The position numbers and the translations under genes were made by a program. From Secundilactobacillus folii (GTDB taxonomy: Bacteria > Bacillota > Bacilli > Lactobacillales > Lactobacillaceae): DNA of 64,000 bases. The stretch lies in NCBI RefSeq assembly GCF_009720675.1, contig NZ_WNJO01000008.1, forward strand, positions 1 to 64,000. Reading direction: 5' to 3'. Below, one piece after another: positions 43,940-56,606 of this stretch. Below the pieces are notes generated by a model. It did not search any database, was not told the DNA's origin, and worked only from the letters and a program-made list of their open reading frames with translations. The first letter of the stretch is position 1. Each line of letters opens with the position of its first letter.

Positions 43940-44182
43940 ATGGCACAAAAAGCATTATCAGAATACCAAGCCGATATTCCGGCGGTCAGTCAATTGTTGG
44001 CGGATGAGGAATCAATGCAGCAATTCTTTGATGACCTCACACCGGGCTATCAACGTGAATGGGCCAGGTTTATTTTTGGGGCTAAGGCAGAAGCGACAAA
44101 GCAACGCCACATTGAAGTTATGAAGACTGTATTTAAGGCGGGGTTTAAGTCGAAACGAGCTTATGATTCCAGGCAAAAGTAA
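43940..44182 (+). CDS. YdeI/OmdA C-terminal family protein
   Basis: 80 residues. The segment FFDDLTPGYQREWARFIFGAKAEATKQRHIEVM matches the short C-terminal module of the YdeI/OmpD-associated (OmdA) family, often linked to protection against cell-envelope stress and bacteriocins. The N-terminal domain found in longer family members is absent. AAAGGGG binding site. Isolated gene, followed by a terminator. Confidence 0.75.
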   Translation: MAQKALSEYQADIPAVSQLLADEESMQQFFDDLTPGYQREWARFIFGAKAEATKQRHIEVMKTVFKAGFKSKRAYDSRQK

Positions 44183-44308
44183 TGTGAGAGCGGAGTGCGA
44201 TTTGCCAACTTGACGGTCTGTTTGCATGATTACGATAACCCGTGATCAAAAACTTAATATCAAATTCAGGTGAGCCTTTTTCTAATCAATTTCATCTATT
44301 TATAATTT

Positions 44309-44338
44309 ATACTACCATTTAAAGATGGTAGTATTTTT
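44309..44338 (+). terminator. Rho-independent terminator
   Basis: Perfect ATACTACCAT (44309-44318) / ATGGTAGTAT (44325-44334), then TTTTTG. It is about 130 bases past the YdeI-like gene; the rest of the gap before 44511 shows no gene. Confidence 0.85.
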
Positions 44339-44510
44339 GATTAAACGCTAACATTATTGAAACAGGGGATTATAATCATTAATAAATAGGTAGAAATCTT
44401 TAAAAATTTAATCATCCTTTCCTTGAGATTGATCAATAAGTTTTGGTAGACTTTACATAAGCTATTTGTAAATATATCAGATCAGTCAATTTTGTTTGGA
44501 GGACGACAAA

Positions 44511-45944
44511 ATGAAGACGAAAAAGTTGACGTTACACTTGGTTGTAAGCGGATTCTTGATGGGGACAGCCTTGACAGCAGGCATATTTTTGCGGCCATTC
44601 AATGAGGAAGTGATTCAGGCTGCGACGCAGGAGATAGCGCCAACCATAACCCTAGATGCTAGCAATGCCGAGGTGGATGATAGTGGGGTGCTATCTTTAA
44701 AAGAGCCACAGACAATTATGGATGAATTCAAAAACGGCGGATGTCTGGTTATTCCAGCACGTTTAGACAGGCGAATAGTGAAGACGATTGGTCAGCGAAC
44801 ATTTTTAAATGCCAATACTTTAAAATGTCCCGGGATTGAAAAGGTTATATTGCCAGACACTGTCACAACGATTGGGGATGGTGCCTTTGCATTTAACCAA
44901 ATTCGTCAAATCGATTTAGCACACGTTGCCACTATTGGGTATCAGGCCTTTTCACAAAATAAGTTAGAACAAATCGACCTGACTAGTGTTCAGCAAGTTG
45001 GGGCCTTTGCCTTTACCGATAATCGAATCACTTCAATTCATTTCCCAACTGATATGACTACGGTTTCGGTGGGGGAGAACGCTTTTGGGTTTCAGTTTTT
45101 CGATAAGCCTTCAGATACTTCGACAGCTAAGATGATCCAGGTGAACTATACGGATAATTTAAAGTTTGCAACCGTTGTGCAGGGTGTCGGGTTAACCATT
45201 ACCTCAGGAACTACATCATTAGTTAGTGATGATGACTTCATTTTCAGTCATGAATTCACGCCAGCAGATAACGTAGTGGCCAACGCTCAACTGGGCCAAT
45301 TTGAAGGGATGACTGATGGGGTTGCCTTTTACAGAACCATGTTGACCTCCAAAGCAAACCTTGGAAATTACACCATTTTACTTGGCATCCTACCAGTTAA
45401 AGAAGTCCCACCGGTGATCGTGCCACCTGAGGAAAATGGTGGTGACCCGCAGTTGCCCGATCCGAACCCGGGTCCCAAGCCAGACCCGAATCAGCCAGAT
45501 ACTCAGATCAAAGTGAAGTATCCTTACGCCGTTTATGCCAAGCGAGCCATGCGACTGCACGGCAACGTCAACCTCACTAAACCGCTGCACTCATACAAAC
45601 AGCAGCCACGGACTAAAGCCCCAAGTTTCAAAGTTTTGGGGGTTGATTACTCTAAGCACGGCACAAAACGGTACCGAGTCAAGGGTGGTTACATTACGGC
45701 TAACCCGAAGTTCGTGACGAATCTGTATTATCAATCTAATACCAAGAACATCTTGCCCCTGGTGAAAAAGATATTTGGTTACCCTAGGAGTAAATTAACG
45801 AAGAGTCAAAGAATGGGTAGCTACAAGAAGGGTCAAGTTCTCCGTGTGCGCAGACTCGTGACCCGTGGAAAAATCACCCGATATCAGCTAACTAACGGTC
45901 AATATGTCACTGCCAATAAGCAGTTGGTCGGCTGGACGAAGTAA
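44511..45944 (+). CDS. secreted surface protein with BspA-type leucine-rich repeats and DUF5776-type C-terminus
   Basis: 477 residues. Signal peptide to about residue 37 (VIQAATQ). Residues 90-200 hold BspA/LRR_5-type repeats (IEKVILPDTVTTIGDGAFAF, IGYQAFSQNKLEQIDLT, VGAFAFTDNRITSIHFP), a fold used by bacterial adhesins. After a Pro-rich spacer (around 310-335) two DUF5776-type units follow (YPYAVYAKRAMRLH... KGGYITANPKFV and RYQLTNGQYVTANKQLVG), the same end as in the adhesin at 32363-36817. No LPXTG. ATG 44511 has GGAGGA upstream. Expected location is the cell wall; ligand unknown. Confidence 0.87.
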   Translation: MKTKKLTLHLVVSGFLMGTALTAGIFLRPFNEEVIQAATQEIAPTITLDASNAEVDDSGVLSLKEPQTIMDEFKNGGCLVIPARLDRRIVKTIGQRTFLNANTLKCPGIEKVILPDTVTTIGDGAFAFNQIRQIDLAHVATIGYQAFSQNKLEQIDLTSVQQVGAFAFTDNRITSIHFPTDMTTVSVGENAFGFQFFDKPSDTSTAKMIQVNYTDNLKFATVVQGVGLTITSGTTSLVSDDDFIFSHEFTPADNVVANAQLGQFEGMTDGVAFYRTMLTSKANLGNYTILLGILPVKEVPPVIVPPEENGGDPQLPDPNPGPKPDPNQPDTQIKVKYPYAVYAKRAMRLHGNVNLTKPLHSYKQQPRTKAPSFKVLGVDYSKHGTKRYRVKGGYITANPKFVTNLYYQSNTKNILPLVKKIFGYPRSKLTKSQRMGSYKKGQVLRVRRLVTRGKITRYQLTNGQYVTANKQLVGWTK

Positions 45945-45956
45945 TAAATACTTTAA

Positions 45957-46007
45957 AAAATAACCCCACAAGGATGTTTGCTGCATTCAAATGGGGTTAT
46001 TTTTTTG
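45957..46007 (+). terminator. Rho-independent terminator
   Basis: AAAATAACCCCA (45957-45968) with TGGGGTTATTTT (45992-46003), then T-run to 46006. Confidence 0.88.
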
Positions 46008-46016
46008 AAATTAGCG

Positions 46017-46068
46017 TTGACGGATCGAAAAAGTGAGTATATACTCACTAGTGAGTAATCAATCACTT
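46017..46068 (+). promoter_or_regulatory. ABC exporter promoter with TetR operators
   Basis: TTGACG (46017-46022), 17 bases, TATACT (46040-46045): an almost ideal promoter. The perfect 18-bp palindrome AGTGAGTATATACTCACT (46032-46049) covers the -10. A second, imperfect copy follows directly, AGTGA...TCACT (46050-46068). Binding of the TetR protein encoded at the end of this operon would block RNA polymerase and give self-regulation. Confidence 0.88.
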
Positions 46069-46093
46069 ACCTAAATTGAATGGAGGGATTCAA

Positions 46094-46819
46094 ATGACAA
46101 ACGCAATTATTGATTTAACCCATTTAGTAAAAAAATTCGGCAAGCAAACCGTTTTAAAAGATATCAACTTACAGGTGATGTCCGGCGAAATCGTTGGACT
46201 GATCGGACCATCTGGTGCCGGGAAATCAACCGTAATCAAAACGGCGCTTGGTATGGAGTTAGCTGATGGCGGCAGCGCCACGGTATTTGGCAAAGTCATG
46301 CCAAATCGTCAGTTGCTTGCTCGAATTGGTTATATGGCACAGACGGATGCTTTGTATGAAACGCTTTCTGGCCGCGAAAACTTAAAGTTTTATGCGCAAA
46401 TGAAGGGGATTCACAAATCTGAAATCAGCGATTCAATCTCTCATGTGGCTGACGTGGTTAACCTGGCCGACGATCTGGATAAACGAGTCAGTGGTTATTC
46501 TGGTGGGATGATGCGGCGTTTGTCGTTAGCAATTGCGTTACTGGGTAATCCCGAATTATTAATTTTAGACGAACCAACGGTGGGCATCGATCCAGCGTTA
46601 AGACGTCAAATTTGGAAGGAATTAAATGCCATTCGTGATGAAGAGCGCAGTATTCTGATCACGACGCACGTCATGGATGAAGCGGAACTCTGTGATAAAG
46701 TAGCCCTGCTACTGGGCGGAAAAGTGATTGCATTTGACGAACCAGTCGTCCTTAAGATGCAATACAAAGTGGATTCAATTGAAGAAGTATTTTTGAAGGC
46801 GGAAGGTGAATTCAAATGA
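46094..46819 (+). CDS. ABC transporter ATP-binding protein (ABC-2 exporter type)
   Basis: 241 residues. Walker A GPSGAGKST, Q-loop YMAQTDALYETLSG, signature SGGMMRR, Walker B LLILDEPTVGID, H-loop TTHVMDEAE. Powers export of a drug or lipid through the next gene's permease. ATG 46094 with TGGAGGG; an in-frame ATG at 46076 lies before this binding site. Overlaps the permease by four bases (ATGA). Confidence 0.92.
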   Translation: MTNAIIDLTHLVKKFGKQTVLKDINLQVMSGEIVGLIGPSGAGKSTVIKTALGMELADGGSATVFGKVMPNRQLLARIGYMAQTDALYETLSGRENLKFYAQMKGIHKSEISDSISHVADVVNLADDLDKRVSGYSGGMMRRLSLAIALLGNPELLILDEPTVGIDPALRRQIWKELNAIRDEERSILITTHVMDEAELCDKVALLLGGKVIAFDEPVVLKMQYKVDSIEEVFLKAEGEFK

Positions 46820-47973
46820 GAACGATTGCGATAATGAACCGGGTCATTAAAGAATTACTACGTGACAAACGGACCCTGGCACTGATGTTTTTGGCACCGA
46901 TCTTAATTCTCTGGCTGATGAGTGTGATTTTTACGGCCAATTCGACCACCAATGTGAACGTTGGAACGGTCGCTATTTCAAGTAGTGTTTCGACGAATTT
47001 AAATCAGGTTAAGCACGTGAATGTGAAGCATTATCAGTCCACAAAAACTGCTCGTAAGGCGCTAAAAGATGATAAAATAGATGCCATCATTCACAAATCT
47101 GGAAATGATTACACAATCACTCACGCCAACACTGACTCGAGCAAAACCTCCGCGGTTAAGATGGCCTTTAGGAGCGCTTTAGTTGCCGCCAACGTGAAGA
47201 CCATGAAGACTCAACTCGGAGCTGCAAAGGCGACGATCAACAAGCTGCAAAAGATGCTGCCAGTCCAAGCACAGCAAAAATTGCGCGCTCAATCTCAGGG
47301 ACAGGTCTCAGCATCAAAGCAAAGTGCATCGCCTAAAATTACTAACCATTACGTTTATGGGGATTCAAGTACCGGGTTCTTTGATAAAATGTTGCCAATT
47401 CTAATGGGCTTCTTCGTGTTCTTCTTTGTTTTCCTGATTTCTGGCATGGCGCTTCTGAAGGAACGAACCAGTGGCACCCTTTCACGGCTGCTTGCCACGC
47501 CAGTTAAGCGCTCAGAGATCGTTTTCGGTTACATGGCTAGCTACGGGATCTTGGCAGTTTTTCAAACTATTTTGATTGTTGTGGCGACAATTTGGTTGCT
47601 CGGTGTAGAAGTGGTCGGCAGTGTATTTAACATCATTATCATCAATTTGATACTAGCTTTGGTTGCACTGGCCTTTGGTATCTTACTTTCAACCTTCGCT
47701 AATTCCGAGTTCCAGATGATGCAATTTATTCCACTGGTTGTTATTCCGCAAGTCTTTTTCTCAGGAATCATTCCAATGGATTCAATGGCCAGTTGGATCA
47801 AGGATATTTCCTATGTCATTCCAATTAAATATTCTGGGGATGCCGTAACCGGGATCATGATGCAGGGTAAAAATTTGACCTCGTTTGGGCTGGACATTGG
47901 CGTGTTACTGATTTTCCTTGTTGTCTTGACCATTTTAAACGTGGTCGGTCTCAAACGTTATCGTAAAGTATAG
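46816..47973 (+). CDS. ABC-2 type permease
   Basis: 385 residues. One N-terminal membrane helix (LALMFLAPILILWLMSVIF), an extracytoplasmic domain of about 160 residues with a basic helical stretch, and a C-terminal block of five helices (KMLPILMGFFVFFFVFLISG through LLIFLVVLTILNVVG) with the ABC-2 coupling segment ERTSGTLSRLLATPV. Typical of YhgE/DrrB-like drug or lipid exporters. Start overlaps the ATPase stop; the two form one exporter. Confidence 0.9.
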   Translation: MRTIAIMNRVIKELLRDKRTLALMFLAPILILWLMSVIFTANSTTNVNVGTVAISSSVSTNLNQVKHVNVKHYQSTKTARKALKDDKIDAIIHKSGNDYTITHANTDSSKTSAVKMAFRSALVAANVKTMKTQLGAAKATINKLQKMLPVQAQQKLRAQSQGQVSASKQSASPKITNHYVYGDSSTGFFDKMLPILMGFFVFFFVFLISGMALLKERTSGTLSRLLATPVKRSEIVFGYMASYGILAVFQTILIVVATIWLLGVEVVGSVFNIIIINLILALVALAFGILLSTFANSEFQMMQFIPLVVIPQVFFSGIIPMDSMASWIKDISYVIPIKYSGDAVTGIMMQGKNLTSFGLDIGVLLIFLVVLTILNVVGLKRYRKV

Positions 47974-47985
47974 GGGGGTGTAAAA

Positions 47986-48636
47986 ATGGAACCGGAAATT
48001 TCTGTTAGTTATTCTGAATGGTTAGATGGGCAAAAGATGCCAGCTGGTAAGCGTTCAGCAATGAAATCCGCGCTGGAATTATTTGCCAAGCAGGGTTTTG
48101 ACGGCACTTCAACCATGGCAATTGCGAAAAATGCTGGCATTAGTCAGGCGACGATCTTTAAGTATTTTAAAACAAAGGATGATCTGTTGCAGGCCATTTT
48201 AGAGCCCCTTTTAGGGCATTTATTTCCCAATTACCGTGACGAGTTCTTGGGCCATTTTCCGAAGTTACAAACACTGCGCGATGAGATTCACTATTTTATT
48301 CGTAACCGATTCGATTTTGTAGAAGAAAATTCTCAAGTGACCATGATATTGATCAGTCAGGTCATGACCAATAAAGAGATGCTCAGTCATTTTTATGATC
48401 TGCTCTCAGCCAGTTCTCCACAGTTTTTGACGCAAATTTACAGTCGGCTAAAAAAAACGGGTGGCTTGCGAGAAGATGCGTCACCATTGGTTGTCTTTCG
48501 CACTATGGTCAGTTTAGTACTCGGTTACTTTTTACAACGTAATTTACTGGCCCCAGATCTAACAATTGATGAAGATGCCGATTTGCAGCAAATTGAAGAT
48601 ATCATCATGCGGGCCATCGGCAAACCGGGTCAATGA
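47986..48636 (+). CDS. TetR-family repressor of the ABC exporter
   Basis: 216 residues. N-terminal helix-turn-helix SALELFAKQGFDGTSTMAIAKNAGISQATIFKYFKTKDDLL; the C-terminal helical domain should bind the inducer. It is the third gene of the operon whose promoter carries a palindromic operator, which fits an autoregulated drug-responsive circuit. GGGGGGTG binding site, 12 bases after the permease. Confidence 0.92.
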   Translation: MEPEISVSYSEWLDGQKMPAGKRSAMKSALELFAKQGFDGTSTMAIAKNAGISQATIFKYFKTKDDLLQAILEPLLGHLFPNYRDEFLGHFPKLQTLRDEIHYFIRNRFDFVEENSQVTMILISQVMTNKEMLSHFYDLLSASSPQFLTQIYSRLKKTGGLREDASPLVVFRTMVSLVLGYFLQRNLLAPDLTIDEDADLQQIEDIIMRAIGKPGQ

Positions 48637-48707
48637 ACTGATTAGCTATTAATTTTTTAACGAGATAAGAATAGACTGGATGCGAGTTTTCCCAGTTGAA
48701 AATAAAT

Positions 48708-48743
48708 GATTTTAGCCGATTCAGGGTTAAAATCGTTTTTTAT
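48708..48743 (+). terminator. terminator of the ABC/TetR operon
   Basis: GATTTTA (48708-48714) with TAAAATC (48728-48734), then GTTTTTTATT. The following 250 bases, very AT-rich, show no gene. Confidence 0.75.
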
Positions 48744-48995
48744 TCTAACGGTATTATAAAGGAGAAATTAGGTTAAAATTCCAATAGTATATATTAAAAT
48801 TTTTAAAAAATGAATTTTTTTAGTGTTTTACCTCTTATTCTTGTCGGTTTAGTGTTAAAATGTTTCAGAAAGAAAGAGGTATAGTACTATTTGTGGATTT
48901 ATTCACATAGAGCTATATAATTGAATTGGAATGCGCATAAGTAATTGATACCTGACGATCCTGTTTAGATAATTAACGGAAGGGTGGACCAACCA

Positions 48996-49625
48996 ATGAA
49001 AAAATTCGTTGCACTTGTGGGGACTAATACCTCCAAATCAACCAATCGGAAGTTGTTAAAGTATATGAAGAGAAGGTACGCTGACGAAGCTGACATCGAA
49101 GTCGTTGAGCTAAAGGGCTTGCCGATTTTTAAGAAGTCAACTGAGGCATTCGTGCCGCAGCAAGCGCGTGATATTGCTGATAAAATTGACGCTTCGGATG
49201 GTGTCATTATTGGGACTCCTGAATATGACCACTCCATTCCAGCGCTGTTATCGAGCGCATTAGCTTGGTTATCGTATGGTATCCATCCACTGATGGATAA
49301 GCCCGTTATGATCGTTGGTACTTCATATGGGACTTTAGGTGCTTCCCGAGCTCAAGCGCAACTGCGTCAGATTTTGGATTCACCAGAGTTGAAAGCGACC
49401 GTGTTACCAAGCTCAGAATTTTTGCTGGGGCACTCGCTGCAAGCCTTCGATGATAATGGTGATCTGAAGTCAGCTACGGAAGCTCAAAAACTTGACGGCT
49501 TATTTGATGATTTTCTGGAATTTGTTGACTTGACTAGTCAGCTGGATAATTCCAAGAAGTTGCACGAACAAGAAGCTGCAACGGCCTTTACATGGGACAA
49601 TGGTTTAACGGGAGATGAACAATAA
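48996..49625 (+). CDS. NADPH-dependent FMN reductase family protein
   Basis: 209 residues, flavodoxin-like fold. FMN-binding signature near the N-terminus (VGTNTSKSTNRKLL), TPEYDHSIPALLSSALAWLS and GTSYGTLGASRAQAQLRQIL as in the FMN_red family. Transfers electrons from NAD(P)H to flavin or quinone-like acceptors. ATG 48996 with GGAAGGG; an in-frame GTG at 48984 sits in the binding site. Its stop overlaps the next start by one base, and the next gene is a paralogue, so they are cotranscribed and translationally coupled and may form a hetero-oligomer. Confidence 0.88.
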   Translation: MKKFVALVGTNTSKSTNRKLLKYMKRRYADEADIEVVELKGLPIFKKSTEAFVPQQARDIADKIDASDGVIIGTPEYDHSIPALLSSALAWLSYGIHPLMDKPVMIVGTSYGTLGASRAQAQLRQILDSPELKATVLPSSEFLLGHSLQAFDDNGDLKSATEAQKLDGLFDDFLEFVDLTSQLDNSKKLHEQEAATAFTWDNGLTGDEQ

Positions 49626-51076
49626 TGGTGAAATTAGTTGCAATTGCCGGTTCAATCGGTGAACAATCATATAATCGCATGCTACTGGAGTTTATGCGCA
49701 AACACTTTAAGAAGACTGTTGATATTGAAATTTTAAATATCAATAACGTGCCAATGTTTAATGAGGATGAAGATCACAATGATAATGCTGATGTTCATGC
49801 GATTGCACGTAAAATTGCCGGTGCAAACGGCGTGATCTTAGCCACTCCTGAACATAACCATACTGTTCCAGCGGCCATGAAGAACGTGATCGAATGGCTG
49901 TCGAATAACGTGCATCCTTTAGATGGCAAAGCCGTTTGGATCGTGGGCGCTTCATATCACATTCAAGGGTCGTCACGCGCCCAACTGCATTTAAAACAAA
50001 TTCTTGAATCACCAGGTGTGAATGCCATTGTGATGCCCGGAAATGAATTTCTCTTGAGCCAGGCTAAAGAGGCCTTTGATGAAGATGGTAATTTAAAGGA
50101 TCCACGGACAGTTGCATTTCTAGATTCAGTACTGAAGAAGTTTTTGACGTTTATGAAGGTGATCGAATTGATGGACGCACCAGATCCAAAGAGTGCTACG
50201 GAAGAAGATATGGACTCTAAACATGCCGTCAATACCACTGTTGAAGACGTCGACATGACTGATCCAGAATGGGTTGAAAAAGCAGCTGAAAAGACCCACG
50301 CTGCAAGCGGTGGTGACTACGTTAAACTTGACCGCGGGCTATTGACCGTTAACCAGTTGAACTACTTCTTGAATTCCATGGCTGGTGAGTTAACGTATGC
50401 AGATGATAATAACCAGTTTATTTACTACAATAAGAATGCTGATGCAGCTCACATGCTGGCACCACGAACCCCTGATCAAGTTGGTGATCCATTAGCAGCG
50501 GTTCACCCGGACCGAGTGATCGAACACGTCAAGCAAGTTCTATATGCGTTAAGAACCGGTGAATCAGACGTGGTTTCGATGCCTGCTCAAACGGGGCCTA
50601 ATCAGCATGTGATGCATTATTACCGTGCAATGCGCGATGAGAATCGCCGTTACCGTGGGGTTAACGAATTAGTGATCGATATTATGCCGATTTTGAAATA
50701 CTACTTGGCTGCCACCGGCCAAAAGCTGGTTAAGGATTTCGATGCTGTACCGATCTCACCAATTACGGGCTTGGATGCGGTTACCGCTGCTTCAAAGGGT
50801 CATTCCCGTGGCCAAGCTGACGCCACAACTGGTGCCAGTGAGAAGGCTGCTGGTGAAGCTGCAGCTGCTACCGCAACGGATGCGACAACGGGTGCTTCAG
50901 ATGCTGGCGCCACTCAGCTGGCACCGGAACCTGAAGAAAAGGTTGATCCTGATGCGCTGACCGGAGCCTCAGAAGAAACGCCAGCTAAGCCATATGATGC
51001 AGAGAGCGAAAAAGCAGACGCAAAGCCAACTCCGGAACCAGAAACGGACGCCACAACTGGCGCCTCAGAGAACTAA
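49625..51076 (+). CDS. FMN reductase–PAS-like fusion with a multi-flavinylation tail
   Basis: 483 residues, no signal peptide or membrane helix. (1) FMN_red domain, 1-190 (IAGSIGEQSYNRML, TPEHNHTVPAAMKN, GASYHIQGSSRAQLHLKQIL). (2) Residues about 235-370 resemble the DUF438-type PAS domain (GELTYADDNNQFIYYNKNAD, HPDRVIEHVKQVL, HYYRAMRDENRRYRGV). (3) An Ala/Glu/Thr-rich tail with four DxxTGAS motifs at 399-405, 419-425, 443-449 and 475-481, plus a degenerate DAVTAAS at 384-390. DxxTGAS/T is the sequence at which ApbE-type transferases bind FMN to Thr/Ser. It is thus probably a cytoplasmic electron-transfer protein with several covalent FMN groups; no apbE gene is in this window. Confidence 0.85.
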   Translation: MVKLVAIAGSIGEQSYNRMLLEFMRKHFKKTVDIEILNINNVPMFNEDEDHNDNADVHAIARKIAGANGVILATPEHNHTVPAAMKNVIEWLSNNVHPLDGKAVWIVGASYHIQGSSRAQLHLKQILESPGVNAIVMPGNEFLLSQAKEAFDEDGNLKDPRTVAFLDSVLKKFLTFMKVIELMDAPDPKSATEEDMDSKHAVNTTVEDVDMTDPEWVEKAAEKTHAASGGDYVKLDRGLLTVNQLNYFLNSMAGELTYADDNNQFIYYNKNADAAHMLAPRTPDQVGDPLAAVHPDRVIEHVKQVLYALRTGESDVVSMPAQTGPNQHVMHYYRAMRDENRRYRGVNELVIDIMPILKYYLAATGQKLVKDFDAVPISPITGLDAVTAASKGHSRGQADATTGASEKAAGEAAAATATDATTGASDAGATQLAPEPEEKVDPDALTGASEETPAKPYDAESEKADAKPTPEPETDATTGASEN

Positions 51077-51188
51077 AAATTGAATCGTTTTAGGGTTTTG
51101 AATAAGAGAGTGGAGGGTAAAAGTTAATATTGTTAAGTATCAAACCAATTTCCTAGCGCAGAGTTAGTTAAAAATGTGCCTCAATCTT

Positions 51189-51297
51189 CAGGACTCAGAT
51201 TCCAGCCATATATGCAAAGAGCGTCGCAGATTCCTGTTTGGAATCTGCGACGCTCTTTGCATATATTTTGGAATTAAACCGAGTTTGTCCGTCTCTC
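51189..51297. repeat. palindromic intergenic repeat, copy 2
   Basis: Perfect 27-base arms (51208-51234 and 51240-51266) around a 5-base loop. The outer sides GGACTCAGATTCCAGCC and AACCGAGTTTGTCC correspond, in reverse orientation, to those of the element at 24687-24800. Both sit in intergenic DNA just past the end of a gene or tRNA. Confidence 0.82.
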
Positions 51298-51492
51298 TTT
51301 TTTGATGTGGAAATCTGCTCTCGTTTTGAGTAAAACTGATTTATCAAAAGCCAATCTATTCAGCTGTAGCTGTTGCCATCGTGTGGCTTACTTTTCGTGT
51401 CAGTTTCTAATAATTGTTTAATATCATTGTATTTATTAAATAAAAGCGCTAATATAAATTGTGTACAATTAAAGAAGAGAAGAGGCTATGAT

Positions 51493-51966
51493 ATGAGTGA
51501 TATTTATCAATTTCAAGAAACTGAAATGAGTGGCCAAAAAATTGACTTTGCTGATTACCGCGGAAAGGTCGTTCTGATTGTCAATACCGCTAGTAAGTGT
51601 GGCTTAGCACCACAATTGGAAGGAATCGAAAAGCTCTACAAACAGTATCATGATCAGGGCTTCGAAGTTTTGGGCTTGCCATCCAACCAATTTCATCAGG
51701 AATTAGGATCTGATGAAGAGACAAGCGAGTACTGCCAGATGCATTATGGCGTCACTTTTCCAATGACTAAGCAGATCCGGGTTAACGGTGATGATGAGGA
51801 TCCACTATTTACGTATTTAAAAGAAACTGCAGGGCATGGCCGAATCAAATGGAATTTTACTAAATTTTTGATTGGGCGGGATGGCCAGATAATTGACCGT
51901 TACGCGCCAGTTTTCAAACCGGAAAAGATTGAACCAGCCATCGTGGCTGCTTTGGCTAAGAAATGA
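51493..51966 (+). CDS. gpo: glutathione peroxidase family thiol peroxidase
   Basis: 157 residues, the usual length. Reduces hydroperoxides with a thiol donor, likely thioredoxin in this lineage. Active-site Cys in NTASKCGLAPQ, with SNQF(H) and KWNFTKFL giving the Gln/Trp/Asn partners; Cys replaces selenocysteine. ATG 51493 with GAAGAGG upstream; a much longer in-frame start at 51373 runs through non-coding AT-rich sequence. Together with pyruvate oxidase, an H2O2 producer, it fits oxidative-stress handling. Confidence 0.93.
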   Translation: MSDIYQFQETEMSGQKIDFADYRGKVVLIVNTASKCGLAPQLEGIEKLYKQYHDQGFEVLGLPSNQFHQELGSDEETSEYCQMHYGVTFPMTKQIRVNGDDEDPLFTYLKETAGHGRIKWNFTKFLIGRDGQIIDRYAPVFKPEKIEPAIVAALAKK

Positions 51967-51986
51967 ATATATTCAAATTAATTTTA

Positions 51987-52034
51987 AAAACCGCCTGAAA
52001 GGGAGCTTTCAATACTCCTTTTCAAGCGGTTTTT
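51987..52034. terminator. bidirectional terminator
   Basis: AAAAACCGCCTGAAAGG on the left pairs with CTTTTCAAGCGGTTTTT on the right; A- and T-runs flank it between convergent genes. Confidence 0.8.
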
Positions 52035-52083
52035 GCTTGTTTGTGAGTTGATTTTGAACTTACTTGAGTTGCTGCATTGCAGT

Positions 52084-52884
52084 CTATTCGACTTCAACGT
52101 GTTCAACTAACACGTGTCGTTGAAGAAAGTCAACGGTCTGATTGAATACGTCATCGAGATACCCTTTGGCGTGTCGAGTACCAGGGACCATGTTCAGCTC
52201 AAATGGTACTTCAGCCTCAGTTAGCGCGTTGGCCATTGCTAACACACCACTGGTTGGTACAAATTCATTTAGTGAGTTTGCCAGATACATAGCGCCAGTC
52301 CGACTATTAACTCGGTGAACAGGAGTGGCGGCCTCTAGTTCATCCGTTCGCTGATTGAAGTAATTCATGACGAACCACTTATAGAATGCGTCATTAGCAC
52401 CAGATTGGTTGATCGTTGCACTGGCCTTTTGATTAAAGGCACTGGTATCGCCTTCAGCTGCGACCACATCTTGGTGCTTAGCTAACCAATCGTCGATGTC
52501 GAGAATACCAGACAGCGAAACGGCAGGAATTCCATAACGAATTGCCATTTCAACAGCCATATTTCCTCCCGCTGAGGAGCCAACGACTCCAATTGGCATT
52601 TGATTATACTCACTGCGGTTGATCCACACCATTAAACTGTTCATGTCTGACAACGGTTCTGGATAATAAACGTCGGGAGTCATTTGGTAGTTTGGCACCA
52701 AAACCATGTAGCCAAGTTCGGCTAACCGGGTTGCCCAGTCCTCGTCCTTGGCTTTATCCCCACGGAACCAGCCACCCCCATGAATATCAATAATTAGACC
52801 TAAGTAGGGCTTATTTTCCTCATGGTAAGCGTCCAGCGTTAAATGTCTGTTTTCATCATAAATAATATCGCGCTTAACTTGCAT
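52084..52884 (-). CDS. alpha/beta-hydrolase, HSL-like esterase
   Basis: 266 residues. Oxyanion motif DIHGGGWF near residue 37, nucleophile elbow GSSAGG, and a His in GTRHAKGYLDD near the C-terminus complete an esterase of the hormone-sensitive-lipase group acting on short acyl esters. Cytoplasmic, no signal. ATG 52884 with GGAGG eight bases upstream (a TTG at 52899 lies inside the binding region). Monocistronic. Confidence 0.88.
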   Translation of the reverse strand: MQVKRDIIYDENRHLTLDAYHEENKPYLGLIIDIHGGGWFRGDKAKDEDWATRLAELGYMVLVPNYQMTPDVYYPEPLSDMNSLMVWINRSEYNQMPIGVVGSSAGGNMAVEMAIRYGIPAVSLSGILDIDDWLAKHQDVVAAEGDTSAFNQKASATINQSGANDAFYKWFVMNYFNQRTDELEAATPVHRVNSRTGAMYLANSLNEFVPTSGVLAMANALTEAEVPFELNMVPGTRHAKGYLDDVFNQTVDFLQRHVLVEHVEVE

Positions 52885-53041
52885 CTTACCCACCTCCAAA
52901 GAATAATTTCATGGTGAGTATGCCAAAATCCGTCGATAAGGTCAAGCAATTGGCTTTGTTAAGCGAAGGAAAGCGCTTAAAGTAGTCTTTACATTATAAA
53001 GGTTTCACGAGCCATTTTATCCTTCAGAACTTGCTTACGGC

Positions 53042-53998
53042 TTATCTTTGCTGAGATTGTTCCTGATCCGTTTTAAGCATTTTAAGGAGGGCTGCATCAC
53101 GTTTTTTAACGGTCGTCTGACCAGTGTTACCAGACCAGTCAAAGAAACCTTTACCAGTTTTAAAACCTAAGTGACCTTCATCAACCTTCTTTTTAAGGTT
53201 CGGATCAACGCCCGCAGTATTGGCTAAATCAGCATACAAGTAAGCACTGATGTTTTTAAATACATCAAGGCCACCCAAATCAGCGCTAGCGATTGGGCCC
53301 ACTAAACTTTAGCGACGGCCCAAACTGTATTTGACAATATCATCCACCGCTTCAGGAGTAGCGATTCCTTCATTAACAATGTTAAAAGCCTCTCTTAAAA
53401 CTGCTAATTGGATACGATTCCCAACAAATCCCAGTGCAGCTTTCTTCAGCGGCACTGCGTGTTTACCAACCTTATTCATCAGGTTGACAACTCGATCAAC
53501 GGTGGTCTGAGCTGTCTTTTTGCCGGGAACAACTTCAACTAGTGGCATTAGTTGTGCTGGGTTCCAAAAATGAGCCACCACAAATCGTTTCGGATGTTGC
53601 AAAACGGACTGCATGTCAGAGGGATCTAAACCTGAAGTATTTGTAGCGAGGATCACATCTTCATCGACGAATTGCTCAACGGTTTGCCAAACTTGCTTTT
53701 TGATCTGCATATTCTCAATAACCGATTCAATGACAAAATTAGCATCCTTGAGTGCCAGTTTATAACTGGTAAACGGATGGATCTGATTTAAAATATTGAC
53801 TGTCGAATCGCTGAGTAAACCGGCCTGATTGAAGGTCTCCAGATCTTCTTTAATGCGTTGCATACCTTGTTTTAAGGCTGCCTCATTACTGTCCAATAAA
53901 TTAACTGAAAAGCCATTGATTACAAATTGCAGCGTGATAGCGTGTCCCATCGTACCTGCTCCAATGTTAGTGATGGTTTTAATTTGTGATTCAGTCAT
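53042..53998 (-). pseudogene. 3-hydroxyacyl-CoA dehydrogenase with an in-frame stop codon
   Basis: Reads as one enzyme of about 318 codons: NAD-binding start NIGAGTMGHAITLQF, catalytic region VAHFWNPAQLMPLVEVVPGKKT, VGNRIQLAVLREA, and a C-terminal domain GPIASADLGGLDVF...GHLGFKTGKGFFDW. A TAA at 53309-53311 in the same frame interrupts it just after YSLGRR; relatives usually have a Tyr or similar codon there, one base from TAA. The two halves are otherwise intact, so the nonsense change is recent. ATG 53998 chosen, with AAGGGAG eight bases upstream. Without readthrough the enzyme lacks its dimerisation domain. Confidence 0.85.
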
Positions 53999-54121
53999 CG
54001 TCATTGCTCCCTTTAAATGTATTTTCTCTTAATTTTAGCACACTGTATACGCTGACAATCTTTTGCTAGTTGTTAGTCTACAGCTTCCAGTCTATAATGA
54101 AGCGCAAAGGGGGGCTGGTTG

Positions 54122-54439
54122 ATGATTCAAATCATTCATGACGATGAATATGCAAAGAAAACGGCTACCGGATTGGTTGTTGTCGACTTTCGAAAAGATT
54201 GGTGCCCACCATGCAGCCAGATGGATGCGGTCTTAGACCAATTGGATACTCAAATTGGGGATGAAGTCAAGATTCTGGCCATTACCATTAATCGTGATCC
54301 CTACGTTGCTCAAGCGATTGGCGTAAAGAGTGCGCCCACATTGGTCATTAAACAAGAAGGTCAAATTGCTGATGTTGTTTTTGGAACGATTACTGGGAAA
54401 GTACTAAGACTTAAATTGGAAAAGTTGATGGCAGTCTAA
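54122..54439 (+). CDS. thioredoxin-like protein
   Basis: 105 residues. Thioredoxin fold with active site DWCPPC near residues 27-32 (classical thioredoxin has WCGPC) and the cis-Pro region SAPTLVI. Cytoplasmic thiol-disulfide exchange, perhaps for peroxidases or stress. GGGGGG binding site before ATG 54122. Pro-Pro in the active site should shift the redox potential compared with Trx. Divergent from the broken hydroxyacyl-CoA dehydrogenase gene. Confidence 0.88.
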   Translation: MIQIIHDDEYAKKTATGLVVVDFRKDWCPPCSQMDAVLDQLDTQIGDEVKILAITINRDPYVAQAIGVKSAPTLVIKQEGQIADVVFGTITGKVLRLKLEKLMAV

Positions 54440-54580
54440 TATACCCACGACATCGTTGTAAATATGGTCAAAAGAAATGAAGCATATTTAGATTTAGCAG
54501 CAGTCCTATTTAAAGTTATGGTAGGTAGTTCCTTTAACATTAAATGTACATACTACTGTTTAAATTTTGGCTAATTAAAA

Positions 54581-54630
54581 CGGTACTAGATACTTCCTGA
54601 ATTAGGTGAGTTATCTGGTACCGCTTTTTT
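54581..54630 (+). terminator. Rho-independent terminator
   Basis: CGGTACTAGATA (54581-54592) with TATCTGGTACCG (54612-54623), one mismatch, then CTTTTTT. It lies 140 bases past the thioredoxin-like gene; nothing else is seen in that stretch. Confidence 0.85.
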
Positions 54631-54669
54631 GATATTTTAATGCTTAGTGATCCGCCTCATTTCTTATAA

Positions 54670-55164
54670 CTAATAAAGTGGGTGGAACTGATATAAAACA
54701 ATTCCGGCAATAACCGCTAAGGCGATAATGTTGCTTAGGATATTATAGTGGCTAGCAAGTGCCATTTGATTTTCAAAATGAGCTGTTAGATCCGTTAGGG
54801 GGGCTGAATTCTTGATCATGTCTGCGTGCTCCTTATATAATTTGGCAAATTGCGGACTTAGCTCTTGGTATTTGATATCCCGTGCCCAAAATAACCATGA
54901 AGCAGCAAACGATACGACCATTACAATGATCAGAAAGATTTGAAATGGATCCGTCAAAAAACGTTGCAGTTCAAAGCTGATATTTTTTTGTTGAGAAAGT
55001 GGTTCAATTGCTGATGTTCCCATCGCTGAAACTAACAGTAACACTAGGCAGATCAACTGGGAAAAAGTTGCCCGTTTATGTTGAGAGGCCTGCTTATCAA
55101 GAGAAATGAGTTCTTGGGAAACATCAGTTTGAATCTGGGTCAAGAAATGCTCGTTACTGATCAT
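54670..55164 (-). CDS. membrane protein of unknown function, three helices
   Basis: 164 residues. A charged N-terminal helix (residues 1-30) is followed by membrane helices near 33-53, 75-95 and 140-160, with a soluble helical loop between the last two. No recognisable family motif. The pattern of a cytoplasmic helix plus membrane hairpin vaguely recalls small effector membrane proteins, but there is no partner nucleotide cyclase or other defence gene nearby. AAGGGA binding site. Upstream of a LOG-family gene in the same direction, separated by a terminator. Confidence 0.65.
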   Translation of the reverse strand: MISNEHFLTQIQTDVSQELISLDKQASQHKRATFSQLICLVLLLVSAMGTSAIEPLSQQKNISFELQRFLTDPFQIFLIIVMVVSFAASWLFWARDIKYQELSPQFAKLYKEHADMIKNSAPLTDLTAHFENQMALASHYNILSNIIALAVIAGIVLYQFHPLY

Positions 55165-55233
55165 GGCAAGTCAGTCCCTTCGGTGTCTTATTTACTTATT
55201 ATTTTACCCAACATTTCCACAAATTGAAAATAT

Positions 55234-55266
55234 AAAGCCTTTGCTCTTTTCTTGAGCAAAGGCTTT
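55234..55266. terminator. bidirectional terminator
   Basis: AAAGCCTTTGCTC (55234-55246) pairs perfectly with GAGCAAAGGCTTT (55254-55266) around a 7-base loop. It lies directly beyond the stop of the LOG-family gene on the minus strand. Confidence 0.88.
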
Positions 55267-55269
55267 TAA

Positions 55270-55845
55270 TCAATGTTCATAGTTAGTGCGGATCGTTGGT
55301 GCAGTGTAAGTTTCCATGAACTTAAAAATCGAGTTGAGGTTGTCTGAAAATAATAATTTGCTGCGGTGTTCCGCTGTTAGGAATCCCTGTGCCACCATCT
55401 GATCAAAAAAGGTAGCTAGTGGGTCAAAATAATGATTGACATTAAAGAGTGCACAGGGATTAACGTTATCGCCAATTCTCGCCCAAGAAAAAGCTTCCGA
55501 GATTTCTTCTAACGTTCCTGGTCCCCCAGGGATGGCTAAGCAACCGTCGGCTAGATTCATCATGAGTCGTTTACGTTCAGACATATTATCGACGATTGTC
55601 AGTTTCGTTAGGTGATGATCACTAGCGCCTCGAGCAGCTAGTTCCTTTGGCATAATGCCATGAACGACACCACCATCACCGATTACAGTTTGAGCAAGCA
55701 CACCCATCAAACCAACTCCACCACCGCCGTAAACTAATTCAAAATTATGGGCAGCTAGGAAATGACCTAATTTAATTGTCGACCGTTGATAGATTACCTG
55801 ATTCCCAGTTGAAGCACCGCAATAGGCAGCAATTCTTTTTAACAT
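55270..55845 (-). CDS. LOG family protein (nucleoside 5'-monophosphate phosphoribohydrolase-like)
   Basis: 191 residues, Rossmann-like. GGGGVGLMGVLA near residue 40 and the hallmark PGGPGTLEE near 108, with MSERKRLM before it, mark the TIGR00730/LOG family, which cleaves ribose 5-phosphate from AMP or cytokinin nucleotides. Bacterial members often have AMP/IMP hydrolase activity. AAAGGAG binding site before ATG 55845. The gene is often mislabelled lysine decarboxylase. Confidence 0.9.
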   Translation of the reverse strand: MLKRIAAYCGASTGNQVIYQRSTIKLGHFLAAHNFELVYGGGGVGLMGVLAQTVIGDGGVVHGIMPKELAARGASDHHLTKLTIVDNMSERKRLMMNLADGCLAIPGGPGTLEEISEAFSWARIGDNVNPCALFNVNHYFDPLATFFDQMVAQGFLTAEHRSKLLFSDNLNSIFKFMETYTAPTIRTNYEH

Positions 55846-55910
55846 AGATGAGCTCCTTTAGAATCCCTAGATAGAGACAATTTGTATTATACATTGTACA
55901 TAGCAATCAG

Positions 55911-56411
55911 TTATTTGGAAGTGGTTTCGAAAGTCAAAAGAGCTTTTTTTCTATCAAGTCCACCAGCATAACCAGTAAGGCTGCCATCGCTGCCAACCAC
56001 TCGGTGACAGGGGATAATAATCGAAATCGGATTATGACTGACTGCTCCACCGACTGATCGGGCGGAGCCGGTTGGCCGACCGTTAACGACTGTTAATCGT
56101 TGCCTAATTTGCTGATAGGTCATTGTTTTGCCGTAAGGAATAGTCATTAAAACCTTATAGACTTGGTTTCGGAAGTCGGTTTCTCGTGGTGCAAGTGGTA
56201 AATCGGAAATGGCTGGTTGATGACCAGCAAAATAATCGTTCAACCATTGACTTGTGCACTGAAGAATAGGTGAGACACCAACTTTAATATTGTTCAAGTC
56301 ATAGTGGGAGCCTTCATATTTTTGCCCTTTGAACCAGACGCCCAGCAGGTAGTGTTCATCTGCTAGTAAAATTAATTTTCCTATTGGTGAATGATAAGTA
56401 GTTCGTAACAT
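55911..56411 (-). CDS. ogt: methylated-DNA--protein-cysteine methyltransferase
   Basis: 166 residues. Transfers methyl from O6-methylguanine or O4-methylthymine to its own Cys in the motif IIIPCHRVVG; helix-turn-helix region FRNQVYKVLMTIPYGKTMTYQQI precedes it, and TGYAGGLDRKKALL follows. Ogt-type length, without the Ada regulatory domain. GAAGGTGG binding site before ATG 56411. Single gene. Confidence 0.95.
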   Translation of the reverse strand: MLRTTYHSPIGKLILLADEHYLLGVWFKGQKYEGSHYDLNNIKVGVSPILQCTSQWLNDYFAGHQPAISDLPLAPRETDFRNQVYKVLMTIPYGKTMTYQQIRQRLTVVNGRPTGSARSVGGAVSHNPISIIIPCHRVVGSDGSLTGYAGGLDRKKALLTFETTSK

Positions 56412-56606
56412 GATTCCACCTTCTAAAAGATTATTTACCAGTAGCCTAATCTATTTTGCAAGAGTTGGCAAACAACTAATCAAGTCATTCTTTTCTAGAA
56501 CTTTACACGTTTGATACCTAACCTATGCAGAAACGATACGAACAGTCGATACAATGCAAGTGTAGTGAGAAATCACTGCCAAATTAAAATGAGCAGGTGA
56601 AAGTCA

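Follow-up and report, generated by a model that had tools for sequence, protein, structure and literature searches.

The window analysed here (the whole stretch of 64,000 nucleotides, part of a genome of 2.68 Mb) carries on its + strand two adjoining genes which code for paralogous FMN reductases being 39% identical to each other. Among named organisms the genome is closest to Secundilactobacillus, its best segment being 84% identical to S. yichangensis. The upstream gene (48996..49625) encodes a FRedA-like partner FMN reductase of 209 amino acids with a clear match to PF03358 (1.8e-35). The ATG at 48996, which is preceded by a purine-rich stretch and was chosen by eye, is its likelier start; the alternative GTG at 48984 would yield an ORF of 213 amino acids (48984-49625). 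The downstream gene (49625..51076), whose start overlaps the stop of the partner gene, encodes a FRedB-PAS-tail fusion of 483 amino acids. This fusion consists of an FMN_red domain (residues 3-148; 49631..50068; PF03358, 1.1e-35), a PAS_10 domain (residues 245-353; 50357..50683; PF13596, 4.2e-26 / 5e-27) and a C-terminal tail (residues 382-483; 50768..51073). The two-gene unit is preceded by a promoter-like site (TTGATA-17-GATAAT, 48945..48973, + strand) scoring 10/12 in a consensus scan; this is weak evidence since the scan returned 8 sites in the region compared with a shuffle mean of 5.2. Downstream there is a terminator-like hairpin with a stem of 20 pairs (51214..51260, + strand), the longest stem of the 6 sites returned by the respective consensus scan (shuffle mean 2.9). 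The upstream partner gene, as well as a second PAS_10 protein of the genome, had gone unnoticed in the sequence-only reading of this locus.

An AlphaFold model of the fusion protein (mean pLDDT 76.2, pTM 0.52, 51 sequences) is confident for both domains, whereas the tail is disordered with a pLDDT below 50 throughout. The alignment A2 comprised 50 of the 80 related loci, the truncated fusions L313, L317 and L329 being left out. A Foldseek search assigned the FMN_red part to the ChrR/FerB class and gave as top match of the PAS part a structure from Streptococcus mutans, 2qkp (C-terminal domain of SMU_1151c, 35% identical). In the model the FMN_red fold opens with a strand beginning at residue 2 and there is hence no sign of a signal peptide, as had been claimed for this protein; here and for ApbE below, the absence of a signal peptide was judged from the model or the open frame.

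The tail had been described as carrying four ApbE-type flavinylation motifs and a decayed fifth one. Translation and a script returned each of the positions given: DATTGAS at residue 399 (50819..50839), DATTGAS at residue 419 (50879..50899), DALTGAS at residue 443 (50951..50971) and DATTGAS at residue 475 (51047..51067), with FMN predicted on S405, S425, S449 and S481, respectively, the last of these lying two residues before the C-terminus, and further DAVTAAS at residue 384 (50774..50794; S390). In 200,000 shuffles of the 116-residue tail one motif was obtained 1,642 times, two motifs once, and three or more motifs never. The motif copies in the window tail differ in their codons. The description of DAVTAAS as decayed did not stand. 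In eight congeners (L035-L042) the site is kept, six times as DAVTGAS and twice as DAVTSAS, and a review reports that the exchange of Gly to Ala in another ApbE target leaves about 50% of the flavinylation (PMC12052999). These two observations rule out mere decay, and DAVTAAS may be a weak fifth flavinylation site.

We then turned to Lactobacillales genomes and compared the tails of their PAS ORFs, 156 distinct ones being available (137 fusions and 19 ORFs without FMN_red). The canonical motif D..[ST]GA[ST] occurs 348 times in 9,150 residues of tail, and only 3 times in the remaining 54,854 residues of the same proteins; 300 rounds of shuffling the tails gave a mean of 0.8 and a maximum of 4 motifs. 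Of the 156 proteins, 131 have one or more canonical motifs and 25 have none, so that the conservation expected for the TGAS motifs in homologues is borne out. When the motif is relaxed to D..[ST][GS]A[ST] the number rises to 149, and with D...[GSAN]A[ST] it rises to 155, the exception being L257 with a tail of different reading. The distance from the final motif to the C-terminus is 0-5 residues in 154 of the 155 proteins that have a loose motif. The 348 canonical motifs correspond to 325 different 21-mers but to only 59 peptides. This points to selection at the protein level and rules out a young DNA repeat as the origin of the motifs. One could also regard the tail as a low-complexity linker which is not flavinylated at all, and the tails are indeed rich in A, P, E, T and S. 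Against this stand the roughly 400-fold excess of motifs over the shuffled tails, the selection just mentioned, the presence of apbE beside these genes in many relatives (see below) and the reported flavinylation of related tails (PMC11334425), which together leave the linker explanation with a negligible probability.

A search of the genome for a cytoplasmic ApbE had been suggested, and we found a single ApbE above the cut-off (PF02424). Its frame of 316 codons has no space for a signal peptide, so that the enzyme is cytoplasmic-looking, and it could be aligned with FmnB (7esa) over 308 residues. The TSG serine, the His and the Asp, which are given as the catalytic residues of ApbE in a review (PMC12052999), are all in place. 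No apbE is present among the ORFs of 44000-56500; the sole copy of the genome lies on contig 12 and the window on contig 57. Among the matches listed for 301 genomes of the family, ApbE occurs in 97 of the 98 genomes with a PAS match and in 84 of the 203 others; these counts were compiled by hand from lists without weak PAS matches, are uncorrected for kinship and are lower bounds. The only PAS genome without ApbE (G261) has an assembly which is 76% complete.

The gene neighborhood in the relatives points in the same direction. An apbE gene is found upstream and on the same strand in at least 76 of the 137 distinct fusions and downstream only in 2, a lower bound owing to short flanks (for 82 of the 137 the upstream flank exceeds 1,500 bases). 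Named genomes, partly of the same species, contributed 78 distinct fusions, of which 31 have apbE upstream and 5 have it downstream only. Of the 136 distinct relatives having at least 500 bases upstream, 134 have the small FMN_red gene directly 5′ of the fusion; the same holds for 77 of 77 fusions of named genomes, and the common operon order in the relatives is apbE, small FMN_red, FMN_red-PAS-tail. This conserved pairing with a reductase also argues against a flavin reservoir, i.e., a tail which stores FMN where riboflavin is short and whose redox use is secondary. The several sites and the disordered simple linkers would suit a store, but reversal of the FMN link is not known in these bacteria, and we consider a reservoir very improbable. 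The apbE gene of Streptococcus agalactiae and two genes for FMN reductases are neighbors by number (SaSA53_0930-0932); it has been reported that their transcripts change by -2.09, -2.11 and -2.12, that all three are marked CYT and that SaSA53_0932 appears at 3.55 in the proteome table (PMC6224512).

The sequence-only reading had named a coupled neighbor as a possible loader of the tail, and the gene pair matches the arrangement of a known heterodimer. It has been shown that FRedA and FRedB of Lactobacillus johnsonii are each inactive alone and active as a heterodimer, which has two FMN sites, passes the electrons of NADH to free FMN (Km 20 uM) and yields H2O2, the latter without the need for a flavinylated PAS protein in vitro (PMC4500961). 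The report also cites lj0548/lj0549 (Hertzberger 2014) and describes homologues of the PAS protein LjPAS fused to an FMN reductase in other lactobacilli, the text naming L. plantarum and figure 1 Lp2732 and EF1227. The terms flavinyl, ApbE and covalent are absent from the text of PMC4500961. We found that both published LjPAS primers match the locus L242 exactly, which identifies L242 as L. johnsonii or a very close relative. The encoded protein has 244 amino acids, a PAS_10 domain and the three motifs DATTGAT, DTATGAS and DTSSGAS, which are described here for the first time for the LjPAS gene; as far as can be told from its sequence LjPAS is a probable ApbE substrate. The LjPAS of the published assays was made in E. 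coli, ApbE not being mentioned, and was probably unmodified.

This bears on the proposal of Valladares et al. (2015) that the PAS protein is a regulator which slows the assembly of the heterodimer in response to a redox or ligand signal; a tail flavin, if any, would then sense the redox state. In its favor, preincubation of LjPAS with FRedB reportedly more than halves the initial rate, whereas the effect on the preformed heterodimer with FMN is not significant (PMC4500961). The protein assayed was, however, probably bare, a fused PAS domain cannot be titrated against FRedB, and multiple conserved sites are more than one sensor needs. We therefore regard regulation as the main role as very improbable. 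PMC4500961 is moreover at odds with itself on LjPAS, the abstract and discussion speaking of repression at low oxygen and the results of a 3-fold drop of the transcript at high oxygen, and this contradiction bears on the question of an aerobic versus an anaerobic role of the PAS protein.

Which part of the protein the tail belongs to could be seen from the same loci. The motif D..[ST][GS]A[ST] is present in 226 of 236 PAS ORFs and in 0 of 220 PAS-less FMN_red ORFs, drawn from two overlapping sets of loci which were picked via the fusion and not at random. The tail goes with the PAS domain and not with FMN_red, which is new as far as we searched. Of the 19 PAS ORFs without FMN_red, 18 have at least a loose motif; L257 has none, and L256 is cut by the contig end. 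The window genome itself has two PAS_10 matches in all (E <= 0.001), the second one being a protein of 193 amino acids with two DATTGAS motifs and no reductase domain.

These findings are difficult to reconcile with the model of Huang et al. (2024) in its pure form. There the tail is a tether: its FMN fills the reductase's own site and is thereby guarded against loss, the extra motifs being spare. Weak flavin binding by FRedA/FRedB (KD for FMN 1.96 uM, 0.58 FMN per dimer as purified; PMC4500961) would make such a tether useful, in a model of the L. lactis protein the tail lies close to the flavin site, which was read as the flavin occupying the protein's own site (PMC11334425), and in our model the disordered tail could reach the flavin site as well. 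However, the reductase-less PAS proteins, among them the second one of the window genome, keep the motifs, and the PAS-less reductases of these loci, chosen though they were through the fusion, have none. Furthermore, each chain offers four or five sites where a heterodimer has two at its interface, and this excess argues against a tether in the pure sense. We consider this model unlikely, though the least unlikely of the alternatives.

Possible takers of electrons are encoded elsewhere in the genome. There are two enzymes with FMN_bind and FAD_binding_2 domains (C58 and C3), and one of them has the same reductase front as the window locus, its FMN_red domain being 58% and its small partner 53% identical to those of the window. 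In Companilactobacillus an FMN_bind/FAD_binding_2 gene is often found beside the operon in divergent orientation, and in the one such gene that was read (L281) the linker contains a motif like those of the tail.

Taken together, we consider it probable that the ApbE-flavinylated tail is the local FMN pool of a cytoplasmic oxidoreductase of the FRedA/FRedB type. The two genes would encode an NADH:FMN oxidoreductase whose larger subunit bears the PAS_10 domain and the disordered tail. The single, apparently cytoplasmic ApbE would put FMN on S405, S425, S449 and S481 and perhaps on S390; that the tail of the window protein is flavinylated is, judged from the sequence, very probable. NADH would reduce FMN at the FRedA-FRedB interface, and the tethered tail flavins would accept the electrons in situ, as a local pool. 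From there the electrons could pass to O2, giving H2O2, or to flavoprotein reductases of the FMN_bind/FAD_binding_2 type. We infer such a relay via the tail flavins with a little less assurance than the pool as a whole, while still holding it to be probable. The PAS domain, with which the tail is constantly paired, probably serves as a docking site for a tail flavin, for the reductase pair or for the acceptor. Against this explanation count the position of apbE on another contig, the formation of H2O2 by FRedA/FRedB in vitro with no flavinylated PAS protein present, and a two-hybrid test in which LjPAS showed no effect (PMC4500961). The earlier picture is thereby partly supported: the cytoplasmic-looking ApbE, the conserved motifs and the coupled neighbor are borne out, while an internal electron wire, sensing or gating by the PAS part and the identity of the final acceptor are conjecture.

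If this is right, two separate reports are joined, namely that on the H2O2-making FRedA/FRedB-LjPAS system and that on ApbE-flavinylated FMN_red tails. The published assays would probably have used unmodified LjPAS, and the need for free FMN as acceptor would become understandable. Covalent flavins would moreover be of broad use in the cytoplasm of lactobacilli and related bacteria, beyond their extracytosolic use.

The non-canonical tails were analyzed with respect to the kind of deviation. The repeats of L102 read DANASAS/DASASAS/DADASAS/DADASAS and those of L100 AAVASAS/DAVASAS/DGVASAS, and apbE is present in the locus for 10 of 13 examined proteins without a canonical motif. Since the repeats are alike within one protein and apbE is retained, random decay of these tails is ruled out. 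The motifs inside one tail drift in concert, a feature which is new as far as we searched. Some of the 25 proteins without a canonical motif have repeats of the DANASAS or DGVASAS type, which are candidate sites only, and this counts against the flavin-pool explanation. In a tree of the ApbE sequences (quick method, 94 rows, several long branches) at least 5 changes at motif position 4 and at least 10 at position 5 are required. The tree alone proves nothing, because linked genes are co-inherited.

We also looked at substrates in trans, on the premise that an ApbE should also serve the FMN_bind domains elsewhere in its genome. From 100 FMN_bind loci we obtained 82 D-initial motifs in 68 de-duplicated genomes with tail sequence; loci without a D-initial motif (L167, L168, L170) were left out, and in many control genomes the FMN_bind matches were read in part. 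Over all 68 genomes, 15 have at least one tail motif with Ala at position 4, and 5 of these show Ala-4 in the FMN_bind motif as well, compared with 1 of the 53 others (Fisher p 0.0015, uncorrected for kinship). When only the genomes with a single ApbE are considered (n = 24), an unlinked FMN_bind domain has Ala at position 4 in 3 of 3 genomes with Ala-4 tails compared with 0 of 21 others. The three are G005 (2/2 motifs), G154 (1/1) and G088 (1/1); G005 and G154 are of the same genus, and a 164-residue ORF of G154 with NQVSGAT was excluded by the D-initial filter. For tails with at least half of the motifs having Ala-4 (10 genomes) the FMN_bind domains agree in 5 and disagree in 5 (L295, G209, G152, L303, L312), G209 and G152 having three ApbEs each. 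No such covariation is seen at position 5 (Gly to Ser), where 82 of 82 FMN_bind motifs retain Gly. The shift at position 4 which tail and unlinked ApbE substrate appear to share in three single-ApbE genomes is new and suggestive.

Possibly all this reflects a conserved cytoplasmic flavin relay of the Lactobacillales, in which the FMN_red pair charges the FMNs of the PAS-tail proteins, and these in turn serve soluble ene-reductase flavoproteins anaerobically and O2 aerobically, with H2O2 formation as the uncoupled form; ApbE and its substrates would drift together, position 4 being a movable specificity code. We put this wider proposal forward tentatively and would not be surprised if it failed. 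The coordinated motif drift is a natural data set on how ApbE reads its substrates, which should be useful for flavin-tagging.

How does the locus compare with known systems? In Lactococcus, FMN_red proteins with an unstructured C-terminal extension bearing one or two motifs are encoded near apbE, and two of these tails have been reported to be flavinylated in E. coli by the cognate ApbE, the modification being lost on exchange of Ser/Thr to Ala (PMC11334425). As in these proteins, the extension behind PF03358 in the window protein bears D-x-x-[ST]-G-A-[ST], but there are four or five motifs instead of one or two, and apbE is on another contig instead of next door. The phrase "PAS domain" has 0 occurrences in the text of PMC11334425. 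In a genus of the Streptococcaceae (g98), which may be Lactococcus, its name being inferred, FMN_red-PAS fusions are among the matches listed, and the three that were read have two or three motifs, with apbE in front of two. The window fusion and the flavinylated Lactococcus proteins thus probably belong to the same family, and we infer a PAS domain in the latter. We do not file the window copy as a proven member of the ApbE-flavinylated FMN reductases; it would work like one.

As in the FRedA/FRedB-LjPAS system, the window locus has two FMN_red paralogues side by side and encodes a PAS_10 homologue of LjPAS, with the difference that the PAS protein is a separate gene in L. johnsonii and is fused to FMN_red in the window. 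The hydroxycinnamate reductase HcrA/HcrB (PMC10295242) is alike in combining a small FMN_red protein with a larger one which shares its front domain and has an output module carrying flavin; the output is FMN_bind plus FAD_binding_2 in HcrB and PAS plus tail in the window fusion, behind whose FMN_red domain a Pfam search found neither FMN_bind nor FAD_binding_2. The window genome has an HcrA/HcrB-like pair as well, as tested by its domains. Extracytosolic multi-flavinylated proteins carry several covalent FMN per chain, for which longer electron transfer has been proposed (PMC8238504). They are secreted and have repeated FMN_bind domains, whereas the window fusion, which by translation and Pfam has neither a signal peptide nor multiple FMN_bind domains, bears bare peptide motifs in a cytoplasmic tail. 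The solved domain 2qkp resembles the window PAS and covers this domain alone; under the locus name SMU_1151c we found no paper. A search for papers tying natural PAS proteins to ApbE, with subscription journals largely outside its reach, found none; an engineering paper (PMC10722498) contains both PAS and a flavinylation term. The architecture is not new, because flavinylated FMN_red tails of Lactococcus (PMC11334425) and an FMN_red-PAS fusion of the Lactobacillaceae (PMC4500961) have been published. To sum up, the family has been known in two halves, and the union of the two, the bond between tail and PAS domain and the drift of the motifs are new as far as we searched.

The genome of the window encodes a second PAS_10 protein, a stand-alone product of 193 aa (L029:4330-4911, contig 12, minus strand) which carries two DATTGAS motifs and one DAITSAS and whose PAS part is 26% identical to that of the window fusion. 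Among relatives, an 882-aa ORF (L238:1497-4145, minus strand) with four canonical motifs seems to be an FMN_red-PAS-tail protein continuing into a second PAS-tail, and in another locus a separate PAS-tail gene (L241:6473-7165, minus strand) adjoins a complete fusion operon. In a genome near L. johnsonii the tail of the PAS protein (L257:2434-3117, minus strand) contains no motif; the two primers published for the stand-alone L. johnsonii protein LjPAS together show 7 mismatches to this genome.

On whether the LjPAS transcript drops with or without oxygen, the abstract and the results of the LjPAS paper contradict each other (PMC4500961). In the window a glutathione-peroxidase-like gene (51373-51966, plus strand, PF00255 match) lies 3′ of a terminator-like hairpin, fitting an oxidative-stress neighbourhood.

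The operon is also present in Scardovia wiggsiae (L327), a member of the Bifidobacteriaceae, and was perhaps acquired by transfer. Its tail motifs are DAASSAS and DAGSSAS, and it has an FMN_bind motif, DKVAGAS, with alanine at position 4. In Companilactobacillus, a flavoprotein with an FMN_bind-like C-terminal part (L281:488-2428, minus strand) adjoins the operon and bears in its linker an extra tail-like DAKSSAS, which linker motifs at L410-L413 and L415 resemble.

The window's genome itself encodes a 633-aa FMN_bind-FAD_binding_2 flavoprotein with DAVTGAS (L031:4693-6594, contig 3, plus strand) and, next to an ORF resembling a LysR regulator on visual inspection, an HcrA/HcrB-like pair (L030:4091-7127, contig 58, minus strand) consisting of a 199-aa FMN_red and an 826-aa FMN_red-FMN_bind-FAD_binding_2 protein containing DVVSGAS.
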